Shown piece after piece: positions 57,574 to 61,034 of a stretch of 64,000 bases of DNA. The DNA is from Candidatus Brocadiaceae bacterium. GTDB taxonomy: Bacteria; Planctomycetota; Brocadiia; SM23-32. Each line of letters starts with the position of its first letter. Position 1 is the stretch's first letter. A program made the position numbers and the translations under genes. Location: the NCBI GenBank assembly GCA_012728835.1, contig JAAYEJ010000053.1, positions 1 to 64,000 of the forward strand, read 5' to 3'. Below the pieces are notes generated by a model. It did not search any database. It had not been told where the DNA came from and saw nothing but the letters and a program-made list of their open reading frames with translations.

Positions 57574-58479
57574 ATGCGAGCAAGTCGCGCCGTCGCTGTC
57601 GGATTCATCCTCGCCCTTACGCTCCTGTGCATGCCGGCCCGGTGGGTCCGGGCGCAGACGGCCCAGACGGGCGCCGAGCCCGTCGCGAGCGGGGCAGGGG
57701 CCGTGCCCTCCGACACCTCCGTCCTGATGGCGGCCGACACCGCCGTCCAGGTCGCCACGGACACGGCGGTCATGACGGGGTCCGTGCGCAGGGACGCCGC
57801 CTCCGAGGAACTGACCTGGGGGGCCGCCTTCGTGCGCAAGCTGCAGGAGGGCGGCATCACCATGGTGTTCCTCCTGCTGGCATCGATCGCCGGCGTCGGC
57901 TACACCATCGAGCGGCTGGTGAACCTGCGGATGGGCGTGATCGCACCCGACGGCCTGGCCGAACGCGCCGACCACCTGTGGCGACAGAAGCGGTACGGCG
58001 AGATCATGGCCCTGCCCGAACGGAGCAAGAGCACGCTGGCCCGGGTGCTGGCCGTCGTGGCCCGGCATCGCCACAGCAGCATGGCCGACGTCTCGACGAT
58101 GGCCGGCGACGTGGCCTCGCGCGACCTGCGCCGGCACCTTCAGAAGGCGTATCCCCTGGCGGTTGTCGCCACGGTCTCGCCCCTGCTCGGCCTGCTGGGC
58201 ACGGTCATCGGCATGATCGGCGCCTTCGGCAAGGTCGCGGCGGCCGGTTCCCTCGGCGACGCCTCGCTCCTGGGCGGCGACATCAGCAAGGCACTCATCA
58301 CGACCGGCGCCGGCCTGACCATCGCCGTGCCCGCCCTGGTGCTCTATCACTACTTCCGCAGCCGCACCGGCTTCTTCGCAATCGTCCTGGAAGAGGAGGT
58401 GGGGGAACTGCTGAGTTCCTGGTTCGGGGCCGATCCGGACGCAGGTGAGGATGCCCGGGAGGAAGGCCATGAGGGTTAG
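57574..58479 (+). CDS. exbB: MotA/TolQ/ExbB-family proton channel protein
   Basis: A 301-residue inner-membrane protein with a signal peptide (AVAVGFILALTLLCMPARWVRAQ) and a ~65-residue Ala/Thr-rich periplasmic stretch. The channel domain follows: first helix MVFLLLASIAGVGYTIERLV, cytoplasmic loop, then LAVVATVSPLLGLLGTVIGMIGAFGKV and ITTGAGLTIAVPALVLYHYF, as in TolQ/ExbB. It conducts protons with ExbD. It has AAGGAGG just upstream of ATG 57574. It overlaps exbD by 11 nt. Confidence 0.92.
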   Translation: MRASRAVAVGFILALTLLCMPARWVRAQTAQTGAEPVASGAGAVPSDTSVLMAADTAVQVATDTAVMTGSVRRDAASEELTWGAAFVRKLQEGGITMVFLLLASIAGVGYTIERLVNLRMGVIAPDGLAERADHLWRQKRYGEIMALPERSKSTLARVLAVVARHRHSSMADVSTMAGDVASRDLRRHLQKAYPLAVVATVSPLLGLLGTVIGMIGAFGKVAAAGSLGDASLLGGDISKALITTGAGLTIAVPALVLYHYFRSRTGFFAIVLEEEVGELLSSWFGADPDAGEDAREEGHEG

Positions 58480-58885
58480 GATCGACGAGGACGAACAGGT
58501 CGAGGTCCAGATGGCCCCGCTCATCGACTGCGTGTTCCTGCTCATTATCTTCTTTCTGGTTGCCACCACCATGAAGAAGATTGAGAAGGAACTGCCGCTG
58601 GAACTGCCCGAGGCCGCCGCCTCCGTCGGCCGCCAGGTGGAAGACAACATGACGGTCATCTCCATCGACCGCGATGGAAACCTGTACCTGGGCTCCGAGC
58701 CGGTCGGCCAGGGCTATCTGGGCCGCAAGCTCCAGGAACTGGCGCAGGCGAACCCACAGCACCGGATCCGCATCGACGGCGACCGCAACGCGCCCCTGGG
58801 CGCCGCCGTGCAGGTGCTGGACATGTGCAACTTCGAGAGGCTGAAGAATGTCGGGATCAAGACCAAAAGCCCCGTCCAGCCGTAG
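58469..58885 (+). CDS. exbD: ExbD/TolR-family proton channel subunit
   Basis: A 138-residue protein with one membrane helix near the N-terminus. It begins EVQMAPLIDCVFLLIIFFLVATTM, where D20 is the proton-binding Asp of the family. The periplasmic part has MTVISIDRDGNLYLGSEPV and VQVLDMCNF as usual. ATG 58469 is used (open frame starts earlier at 58445 inside exbB). The next gene begins 38 nt before its stop. Confidence 0.92.
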   Translation: MRVRIDEDEQVEVQMAPLIDCVFLLIIFFLVATTMKKIEKELPLELPEAAASVGRQVEDNMTVISIDRDGNLYLGSEPVGQGYLGRKLQELAQANPQHRIRIDGDRNAPLGAAVQVLDMCNFERLKNVGIKTKSPVQP

Positions 58886-61034
58886 CCGCCCCGCCCTCGC
58901 CGATCTCGCGGCGGTCCGGCGGCGCCGGACCGGCAACGGCTGGTTCCTCCTCTCGGTGATCCTGCACGTCGCCGCCATCGTCGCGCTGGTCAGCCTGACG
59001 CCCGTGCGGGAACTCATGGAGGAGGTCCGCCGCGCCAACCGCCCCGAACAGAGCCTTTCGGCCGCCGAACTCGCCCGCCTTGCGGAGGCCATCGAACTGC
59101 GTGCGGCCGACGAGATCCGGTCCAATACCCGGGAACTCGGGCGGGTCTTCGATCTGCTGGGGCAGATGCAGGAGGACGTCCGCAGCCGGTTCGTCCGGTT
59201 CGAGCAGCAGCGCCGCGGCAACGCCGCCCGCGACGCGCTCGACGAGATGCGCAAGGCGGTCGAGCAGATGCAAGAGGCCCTCGCCCTCATCGAGAAGGAC
59301 GCCGGCGCGATGGCGACCGACCGCTCTCAGGCCCTGGCCGAGCGCGCCCAGGAACGGGCCGCCGGCAAGCTGGGCCTGGTGGACTTCGGCATCGAACCGG
59401 TCGTCGCCGGCCACCGCGCGGCCGCCGAGGTCCACCAGGAGGCCAAGGCCCGGCATGACGAGCATACGACGGCCGGCGCGCTGGTTACGCGCCTGGAGCA
59501 GACCCTGGCCACCGAGCAGGCGCGCATGGAAGAGCAGCAGGCGACCGTCGAGCGCCTGGCCGAGGCAGGCCGCACCGAGGCGCAGCTCGCGCCGTACGTC
59601 CGGCAGGTGGAAACGCGGCAGGCCCGCGTTGAGGAGACGACTTCCCAGTTGCAGGAGGCCCGCAGCGAGCAGGCGCGCCTGCGGACGGAGGCGGAATCGA
59701 GCCAGCGGCTCGCCATGAAGGCCCAGGAGGAGGTCGCCGGGCGGCTTCAGCGCCTGATCGACCAGGATGCGGCGGCGCCCTCCGGCGCAGCGGCGCCGGC
59801 CGGCGCAGCGGCGCCGGCCTTTGCCGTCGCCCTCCGCCCGGACCTGTCGACGACGGGAGCCGACGACGGGGCCGACGTCCCCGAGTTGTACGCCCGTGCC
59901 CGATCCCTGGAGGACGGCATCGCGGAGACGTTCAAGGAAGTCCGCGCCATGGACCTGGCGATGGTCCGCGACATATCGCTCGATGCCGCCCGGAACGACA
60001 TCGACCTGATCCGCCCCGTGCGGCCCGAACTCGATGCGGAACTCCTGCGCGAGGCGGCGCGCACCGACGAGCGCTTCGAGGAGCATAAGGAGGAGGTGCG
60101 CACCGCCCTCCGTGAGACCAGTTCGATGGTCAACCTCTCCCGCCGGATGCTGGAGATGGCAACCGAGTCGGTCGACAAGATGAAGTTCGGCACGGACGTG
60201 CAACTCGCCGCCGACGAAGAGGAGGAGCCGGACTTCCGCCTGATCATCCGCGAACTGGCCATGGAGGAGGTCACGGGCCGGTTCAGCGACCTGGCCGAAG
60301 CCATGCGCGCCCTCGAAGAGGAAGGGAACGAAGGCGAGGACGGGGGGCAGAGCCGCCGGCAGAGGCGCGCCGGAGGCGCCGATGGCGGCGGCGGACCGGA
60401 CGGGCGCAGCCGGCCGGACTACAAGGACCTGACGGCTGAGGAGCTGGCTGCCGGCCTCGCGCAGATGCCCCGGTTCGGCCCCGATGGGGCGGGGGAGGGC
60501 GGCCTGCTGCCCGATCTCCCAAGGGACGTGCCGGCCGTGGGCGCCCGCAAGCTCAGCCCCGGCGGCGACCCCACCCCCTGGATGTACCTGAATACGTGGT
60601 ACACCGTCGGGCCGTTCCCCAATCCCAACCGCGTGAACATCGACCGGGAGTTCCCCCCCGACAGCCTCATCGACCTGGACGCCGCCTACGTGGGCAAGGA
60701 CGGACGCACCATACGCTGGCAGTTCGTCCAGTCCGACGGGCCGATGGTCACCCCCCCGAATGCCGAACCCTACGGCATCTGGTACGCCTACACCGAGTTC
60801 CACTGCGACCGCCCGCGCGACGTGATCATCGCGCTGGGAAGCGACGACCGCGGGACGCTGAAGATCAACGGCGTCGACGTCTGGATCAGCTCCAAGCAGC
60901 TCAAGGCCTGGGACATCGACGAGGTCTGGCGGCGCGTTCACTTCAATGAGGGCGTCAACCGCGTCCTGTACCGTGTGGAGAACGGCTGGCAGAGCATCGG
61001 TTTCTCCCTGATCCTCCGTCTCGAGGAACCGTAG
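58848..61034 (+). CDS. Coiled-coil envelope protein in TonB position of exbBD operon
   Basis: A 728-residue unknown protein. After a short basic start comes one membrane helix (GWFLLSVILHVAAIVALVSL, ~31-50), then a very long helical coiled coil (~65-320, rich in Glu/Gln/Arg/Ala). Next is an Ala/Pro linker with two GAAAPA repeats, a second helical stretch, and a C-terminal ~150-residue beta domain with ALGSDDRGTLKINGVDVW, like PA14 or galactose-binding modules. No TonB C-terminal signature is visible. It overlaps exbD by 38 nt, so it is probably the force-receiving partner of the channel. Confidence 0.8.
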   Translation: MSGSRPKAPSSRSRPALADLAAVRRRRTGNGWFLLSVILHVAAIVALVSLTPVRELMEEVRRANRPEQSLSAAELARLAEAIELRAADEIRSNTRELGRVFDLLGQMQEDVRSRFVRFEQQRRGNAARDALDEMRKAVEQMQEALALIEKDAGAMATDRSQALAERAQERAAGKLGLVDFGIEPVVAGHRAAAEVHQEAKARHDEHTTAGALVTRLEQTLATEQARMEEQQATVERLAEAGRTEAQLAPYVRQVETRQARVEETTSQLQEARSEQARLRTEAESSQRLAMKAQEEVAGRLQRLIDQDAAAPSGAAAPAGAAAPAFAVALRPDLSTTGADDGADVPELYARARSLEDGIAETFKEVRAMDLAMVRDISLDAARNDIDLIRPVRPELDAELLREAARTDERFEEHKEEVRTALRETSSMVNLSRRMLEMATESVDKMKFGTDVQLAADEEEEPDFRLIIRELAMEEVTGRFSDLAEAMRALEEEGNEGEDGGQSRRQRRAGGADGGGGPDGRSRPDYKDLTAEELAAGLAQMPRFGPDGAGEGGLLPDLPRDVPAVGARKLSPGGDPTPWMYLNTWYTVGPFPNPNRVNIDREFPPDSLIDLDAAYVGKDGRTIRWQFVQSDGPMVTPPNAEPYGIWYAYTEFHCDRPRDVIIALGSDDRGTLKINGVDVWISSKQLKAWDIDEVWRRVHFNEGVNRVLYRVENGWQSIGFSLILRLEEP
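59784..59819 (+). repeat. Tandem 18-bp repeat within coiled-coil gene
   Basis: Two identical copies of GGCGCAGCGGCGCCGGCC (59784-59801, 59802-59819), preceded by a partial copy. They encode GAAAPA twice and make a flexible linker between the two helical parts. Confidence 0.85.

Follow-up and report, generated by a model that had tools for sequence, protein, structure and literature searches.

Few proteins are known to be moved as cargo arms by ExbB/TolQ-type motors: TonB, TolA and, since 2025, proteins with a von Willebrand factor type A (vWA) domain. The SHLS motif shared by TonB and TolA is taken here with the definition and spacing given in PMC12905483, which also reports that Asp25 of ExbD and Thr148 and Thr181 of ExbB are essential in E. 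coli. The vWA class occurs in Planctomycetes and Verrucomicrobia, and its authors expected further transducer classes (PMC12204202). A long ExbB with a signal peptide and an N-terminal extension is already known in Serratia (PMC9008036). Here we interrogated a three-gene set in a Candidatus Brocadiaceae genome of 3.07 Mb (96.89% complete), in which exbB- and exbD-like genes are followed by a gene for a 728-aa protein that we call G3. The window, the whole stretch of DNA analysed, covers 64,000 of the 64,065 bases of contig JAAYEJ010000053.1. We propose, with a probability of roughly 0.6, that the trio represents one more class of force transducer powered by protons, in addition to TonB, TolA and the vWA proteins.

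An ExbB-ExbD pair with an overlapping third gene

The trio forms a compact set on the plus strand, and its open reading frames (ORFs) are present where the sequence-only reading, an earlier inspection of the letters of this DNA, had placed them. Its features are as follows.

57574..58479, plus strand: exbB-like motor subunit, 301 aa; Pfam MotA_ExbB, E 2.4e-23, 82.7 bits (cut-off 22.9)
58469..58885, plus strand: exbD-like motor subunit; Pfam ExbD, E 5.8e-27, 94.7 bits (cut-off 25.4)
58848..61034, plus strand: G3, 728 aa, proposed force transducer; an ORF conserved over its whole length in 4/8 other genomes of the family
58938..59009, plus strand: G3 domain I, membrane helix, residues 31-54; S36/H40/L47/T51 invariant in 5/5
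59010..59783, plus strand: coiled-coil domain II of G3 (residues 55-312); from hydrophobic periodicity and few prolines
59868..60203, plus strand: conserved helical segment of G3, residues about 341-452; from the alignment, with helices in a weak model
60540..61031, plus strand: G3 domain III, predicted beta-sandwich (jelly roll like GH2 N-terminal and PA14 domains), residues 565-728; from AlphaFold2 and fold searches

The third gene overlaps exbD by 38 nt (58848-58885), as had been read from the letters. In the ORF list, exbD begins at GTG 58445; however, ATG 58469 looks like the true start, since M9 and R10, counted from the GTG, are invariant in 5/5 family members. With this start, the last 11 nt of exbB are shared with exbD.

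The motor proteins carry the residues expected of an ion-driven pair. Specifically, alignment to the E. coli chains places ExbB T210 at T148 and T244 at T181 (5sv0) and ExbD D28 (numbered from 58445) at D25 (6tyi), so that the channel Thr pair and the proton-carrying Asp are intact. The motor is predicted to be proton-driven and of the rotary type. The start of ExbB, MRASRAVAVGFILALTLLCMPARWVRAQ, is by eye an apparent signal peptide (about residues 1-29), and it is followed by a poorly conserved linker, a first transmembrane helix at about 96-113 and the channel part at 166-265, in agreement with the signal peptide and extended N-terminal region noticed earlier.

The gene set recurs across related phyla

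G3 is conserved from end to end in four of the eight other genomes of the family, each time with ExbB and ExbD directly upstream, which argues that the arrangement is not due to chance. A scan of named genomes returned 17 loci, 14 of them with G3-like proteins downstream of ExbB and ExbD and 3 with the domain alone, from Planctomycetota, Lentisphaerae, Kiritimatiellae, Verrucomicrobiia or bacteria without a taxon title. Among 392 Planctomycetota genomes, the domain was detected in 83 at E<=1e-10 and in 11, the source genome included, at >=130 bits; ExbB and ExbD stand beside the gene in 17/19 strong planctomycete stretches fetched but in 0/11 weaker, domain-only ones. Locus L036 led to the Verrucomicrobiota phylum, where 29 of 387 genomes searched had matches at E<=1e-25; ExbB and ExbD are present in 36 of the 38 stretches fetched there.

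Taken over non-redundant strong loci of Planctomycetota and the Verrucomicrobiota group, ExbB and ExbD are in the cluster at 64/68. This set of 68 comprises the source genome with L015-L018 (5), L029-L038 (10), 17 of the 19 planctomycete stretches and 36 of the 38 from the Verrucomicrobiota search; L072, L075, L144 and L145 were dropped as copies of L032, L030, L035 and L036, respectively (for L072 and L075, on the ground that the contigs have the same length), and G467:C48, a further match of the Verrucomicrobiota search, was left out of the count. L033, L035, L037 and L038 come from rumen genomes that are almost the same. In L017 (1179-2077, genome G003), exbB is broken across two reading frames, possibly through an assembly error, and was counted as found. 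The four loci lacking the pair are L076 and L146, which run off the contig end, and L090 and L162, which show none. The trio whose recurrence the sequence-only reading had suggested looking for is thus found in several phyla, and this recurrence makes it look like a type of machine, so far undescribed, that moves some load within the envelope. That G3 is merely an unrelated neighbor of ExbB and ExbD is extremely improbable, given the gene order kept in 64/68 loci over several phyla and the overlapping reading frames.

The motor residues are conserved with the set. Thr is found at the position of T210 in 62/64 related sets and at that of T244 in 63/64, and the ExbD Asp motif is present in all 38 sets with a single ExbD and, in the 26 sets with two ExbD genes, in 26 of the best-matching ExbDs and 25 of the second ones. 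In a tree of ExbB, a single branch separates all 64 set members from 5 other ExbBs (Shimodaira-Hasegawa-like approximate likelihood ratio test (SH-aLRT) 97); an earlier tree of 28 rows had the same branch, with support 99/96.

The domain also occurs apart from the motor, in exported-looking enzymes and repeat proteins, for example with ADP-ribosylglycohydrolase, PQQ/malectin or metallophosphatase domains. Proteins of about 360-450 aa ending in the same domain recur in family f33 (L064-L071, L094-L100), and the stretches fetched there are without ExbB/ExbD.

The membrane helix of G3 and its docking motif

G3 has a single membrane helix, near residues 33-52. This N-terminal helix, SVILHVAAIVALVSLT, contains S36-3X-H40-6X-L47-3X-T51, exactly the spacing of SHLS with Thr replacing the last Ser. 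S36, H40, L47 and T51 are invariant among 5/5 family members, and shuffling the residues of the helix restored the full S-H-L-T pattern in 0.06% of trials. Judged by this pattern, the helix carries a TonB/TolA-type motor-docking motif. Five TonB proteins of related genomes, found independently through TonB_C (four from the TonB_C search and one from genome G011), were used for comparison; Ser-3X-His (SxxxH) is present in four of them. When G3 was aligned to these TonBs with hhalign, the membrane helix was the only stretch paired, with Ser and His in register (probability 9.3%). The view that G3 stands wholly apart from TonB and TolA therefore fails at the membrane helix. This motif, like the intact motor residues and the wide spread of the set, had escaped the sequence-only reading.

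SxxxH is found in 38/64 transducers of the set, namely in 36/38 from single-ExbD sets and 2/26 from two-ExbD sets. The two-ExbD sets are L172-L178, L161, L164-L170, L180, L181 and L078-L086, and the docking His is lost in 24 of these 26, mostly in one clade. A coupled evolution of the second ExbD and the loss of SxxxH was considered and rejected (2 and 4 changes on the tree; independent-pairs test, p = 1), and we make no claim of such coupling because the two-ExbD sets form essentially one clade on the tree.

A predicted coiled coil that is split, fused or shortened

The hydrophobic periodicity of G3 is 3.667 in residues 55-205 and 3.5 in residues 206-312, and there are 4 prolines in the 258 residues from 55 to 312. 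Periodicity and few prolines support a coiled coil of about 250 residues which, behind a single membrane helix, agrees with the membrane-anchored coiled coil described in the sequence-only reading. The helical segment further along (about 341-452) is helical in a weak model, with a predicted local distance difference test score (pLDDT) of 69-85 over the first 100 residues.

In 16/64 sets, the transducer is made by two genes, the first for a membrane coiled coil and the second for a protein that combines the helical segment with domain III; the helical segment thus belongs to the separate domain protein. SxxxH is in the membrane coiled-coil half of 15/16 split sets. Several split domain proteins (L029, L031, L034, L035, L036) bear a clear N-terminal signal peptide, indicating that they are exported and that domain III lies outside the cytoplasm. 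By the logic of gene fusion, the split and fused forms imply that the coiled coil and the domain protein work together, and this trait changed state at least 5 times on the ExbB tree. In short forms of about 440 aa the coiled coil is almost missing, so the constant elements are the helix and domain III. The membrane helix was assigned by hand in L032, L082, L161 and L169, where the automatic pick was an ORF outside the cluster. Tandem domain-III proteins in one operon occur in L083 (1730-4377), L149 (5317-10992) and L150 (5380-11279).

The C-terminal domain is a predicted jelly roll

An AlphaFold2 model of residues 565-728, built from a 57-sequence alignment, is all-beta (pLDDT 96.1, predicted template modelling score 0.91); it replaced a poor model of residues 346-728 from 15 sequences (pLDDT 58). 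It contains strands only, with no helix of at least four residues listed, and so does not have the make-up of a vWA end domain. The best fold match in VIA is the GH2 N-terminal domain of 4jkm (Z 12.3, root-mean-square deviation 3.3, 130/164 residues aligned). The top Foldseek match is the GH3 enzyme 7pjj (E 8.2e-5), with CBM35 and Cea1A also matched; identity to the fold neighbors is 10-16% in most rows, and 7pjj and Cea1A presumably represent PA14. A search of BFVD returned only PA14-like phage proteins, several of them named 'PA14 domain containing'. Domain III is therefore modelled as a jelly roll resembling the sugar-binding N-terminal domain of GH2 enzymes and PA14, a resemblance of fold only, and to this extent the carbohydrate-binding-like domain that had been proposed at the C-terminus is borne out. 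Residues D666, D667, W688, E692, E711, N712 and S720 mark the motor-linked domain III relative to its domain-only relatives.

Profile searches with G3 gave nothing above any curated Pfam cut-off (best DUF6827, E 0.2) and no NCBIfam match at E<=1. Specifically, no PA14 or GH2 Pfam model and no TolA model of Pfam or NCBIfam matched at E<=1, the TonB C-terminal domain had no match in Pfam or NCBIfam, hhalign of domain III to the TonB proteins of related genomes gave a probability of 0.1%, and no solved homologue of full-length G3 was found. The absence of a TonB signature from the C-terminus, and the failure of sensitive profile searches to find TonB or TolA in this domain, are as the sequence-only reading had expected. 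We rejected a TonB or TolA in disguise for domain III on the lack of Pfam/NCBIfam matches and the hhalign value. The broader idea that G3 is a TonB or TolA of the usual kind, diverged past profile recognition, draws on its docking motif and topology, but it is very unlikely, because domain III is a confidently modelled all-beta sandwich (pLDDT 96) with GH2-type neighbors and no TonB profile match, and because bona fide TonB genes coexist with the set in genome G005 and in 8/10 other genomes. A defence system, Zorya included, was likewise rejected (no PADLOC family matched any of the three at E<=0.01).

Genes around the trio

On the minus strand at 53675-56473, the window encodes an LptD-like protein (Pfam 28.2 bits, cut-off 22.4), which is evidence for an outer membrane of the lipopolysaccharide type. 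A partial TadA/CpaF-type ATPase-like ORF of 275 aa, with weak NCBIfam matches, lies on the plus strand at 56554-57381, immediately 5' of exbB; no TadA/CpaF-like ATPase gene was recognised upstream in those relatives whose upstream DNA was listed. Convergent with G3, at 61084-62325 on the minus strand, is a gene for an extracytoplasmic function (ECF) sigma factor with a C-terminal membrane segment and about 180 more residues. An ISL3-type transposase (63398-64000, minus strand) runs past the contig end. In other loci, HEAT-repeat proteins make up 6/8 of the downstream proteins scanned, all at short-form loci and none in the window; their genes lie directly downstream of the transducer in L079, L081, L083, L085, L088 and L089. 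Across loci, neighboring genes give a mixed picture as clues to function.

For the vWA transducers, whose phyla, topology and type of gene order are the same as those of the G3 trio, it has been proposed that the motor powers activity at the cell surface, for example gliding, the movement of adhesins or secretion (PMC12204202). We consider this quite unlikely here, since no gliding or secretion genes are recognised beside the trio, and the only candidate upstream, the partial TadA/CpaF-like ORF, is not found in the listed relatives.

TonB and Tol components in the source genome and its relatives

The source genome encodes no MotA/ExbB and no ExbD besides the pair described here, and it has 0 matches to TonB_C and 0 to the plug of TonB-dependent receptors (TBDRs). 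Of 10 further planctomycete genomes, selected because they carry the set or its strong domain, 9 have the plug and 8 have TonB_C; TonB_C is also found in 6/8 genomes reached through named loci, and G005 carries both the gene set and a separate TonB-ExbB-plug group. The presence of TonB_C in 8/10 of the genomes selected in this way indicates that the system runs beside TonB and does not replace it. The earlier suggestion of a system acting in place of TonB thus fits the source genome but not most of these other genomes. The notion that an ExbB-ExbD motor is paired here with a third protein other than TonB is supported, with the correction that the helix of this protein is TonB/TolA-like.

One alternative is that the trio does the work of TolQ-TolR-TolA and keeps outer membrane and wall attached to each other while the cell divides; the ligand of domain III would then be peptidoglycan or a lipoprotein of the OmpA type. 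The top NCBIfam matches of the motor proteins, both far below cut-off, are TolQ for ExbB (8.7e-15) and TolR for ExbD (7e-14); domain II, as a coiled coil, is reminiscent of E. coli TolA; LptD is encoded in the window; two OmpA-domain proteins, one of them lipoprotein-like, are encoded in the genome; and this is the sole such motor of a nearly complete genome. Nevertheless, the OmpA genes are not adjacent to the trio, TolB_N is absent from the source genome (a diverged TolB may escape the model) and above cut-off in 1/11 relatives, and the set is patchy (4/8 family relatives, several of them incomplete, and 29/387 in the Verrucomicrobiota search), unlike a housekeeping Tol system. A Tol-like role is possible, but on balance we do not favor it.

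Another alternative is TonB-free import of large polysaccharides over the outer membrane, with domain III handling the glycan or gating an importer. In Gemmata, carbonyl cyanide m-chlorophenylhydrazone (CCCP) blocks dextran uptake into the periplasm, by an uptake system that the authors call still to be characterised (PMC5394234). This abolition of uptake in planctomycetes would suit such a role, as would the sugar-type fold of domain III and the lack of a TBDR plug in the source genome. Import is unlikely, however, because the trio has no gene for an outer-membrane channel next to it and because the single-contig genomes of f33 have only weak domain-only matches, with no ExbB/ExbD at the 6 loci fetched; since these genomes lack the motor-linked form in our sample, the uptake studied in cultured planctomycetes may depend on other machinery.

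A proposed force transducer and the evidence that weighs on it

Returning to the G3 trio as a further transducer class, we picture ExbB and ExbD as an inner-membrane motor of the rotary type, powered by protons, with G3 as a force transducer in three parts, built like TonB and TolA. The helix of domain I would dock on the edge of the motor via its Ser-His-Leu-Thr variant of the SHLS motif, and the proton gradient would then let the motor move or pull G3, by analogy with TonB/TolA (PMC12905483, PMC12204202). The coiled coil of domain II would cross the periplasm and carry the force, and domain III, in place of the C-terminal domain of TonB or TolA, would grip a load in the periplasm, the wall or the outer membrane. 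Complex formation, force transmission and the use of protons by the motor are extrapolated from these better-known systems. Our guess is that the job is envelope anchoring or remodelling and not TonB-type import, and, with low confidence, that domain III has as its target a glycan of the envelope or a partner that carries glycan. An extended version seems rather unlikely: in it, a separate class of proton-driven trans-envelope machine would be spread over the Planctomycetes-Verrucomicrobia-Chlamydiae (PVC) phyla, its motor-driven coiled coil would bear a tip that grips glycan and pulls or ratchets polysaccharide (of the wall or imported), and a second form, with two ExbDs and no docking His, would couple transducer and motor in a new way.

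Several observations weigh against G3 as a transducer of the three-part kind pictured above. SxxxH is missing in 26/64 relatives, nearly all with two ExbD genes, so docking at the side of the motor cannot hold for all of them, and the hhalign pairing of the helices counts for little alone at a probability of 9.3%. Jelly rolls of the sugar type also bind proteins or act as structural parts, and no sugar site was identified in domain III. Within the window's family, no neighbor gene points to a target. Finally, the outgroup of the ExbB tree is only 5 sequences, four more comparator ExbB loci having fallen under the search threshold and been left out.

Comparison with known systems

The G3 type would add one to the short list of cargo arms, and it comes with a recognisable sequence signature for dozens of genomes whose operons would normally read 'ExbB/ExbD plus hypothetical protein'. 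With it, the question of how planctomycetes and their relatives, including those without TonB, power outer-membrane work can be put to a defined group of genes, and its split and fused forms are a natural test of the force-carrying contacts. A 2026 Verrucomicrobiota genome paper tabulates ExbB/ExbD among transport genes (PMC13274419). Our search of the open-access literature, with subscription papers, preprints and supplements outside its scope, found no description of a motor-linked jelly-roll transducer, and the main text of PMC12204202 makes no mention of jelly, lectin or sandwich.

The nearest published system is the class of vWA transducers described for 5:2 motors (Williams-Jones et al. 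2025, PMC12204202). As there, the protein encoded along with the motor genes has a single membrane helix of the SHLS type, a part that crosses the periplasm and a globular end which is neither TonB nor TolA. In contrast to the Rossmann-type vWA end and the domain II of about 100 disordered residues of that class, G3 has a predicted jelly roll after a coiled coil, and many of its relatives are split in two genes. With TolA, G3 has in common the SHLS-type helix, the long helical domain II and motor proteins that score best against TolQ and TolR, whereas it lacks the TolA C-terminal domain and its genome lacks a TolB_N match. With TonB and ExbB-ExbD it shares the motor, topology and docking motif, but not TonB_C or a proline-rich domain II (4 prolines in 55-312), and the genome has no TBDR plug. 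The fold of domain III is common to GH2 N-terminal and PA14 domains, although G3 has neither a Pfam match nor an attached enzyme. The long ExbB of Serratia marcescens has a signal peptide and an extra periplasmic N-terminus, as the ExbB here does, but, unlike it, works with TonB and HasB (PMC9008036).

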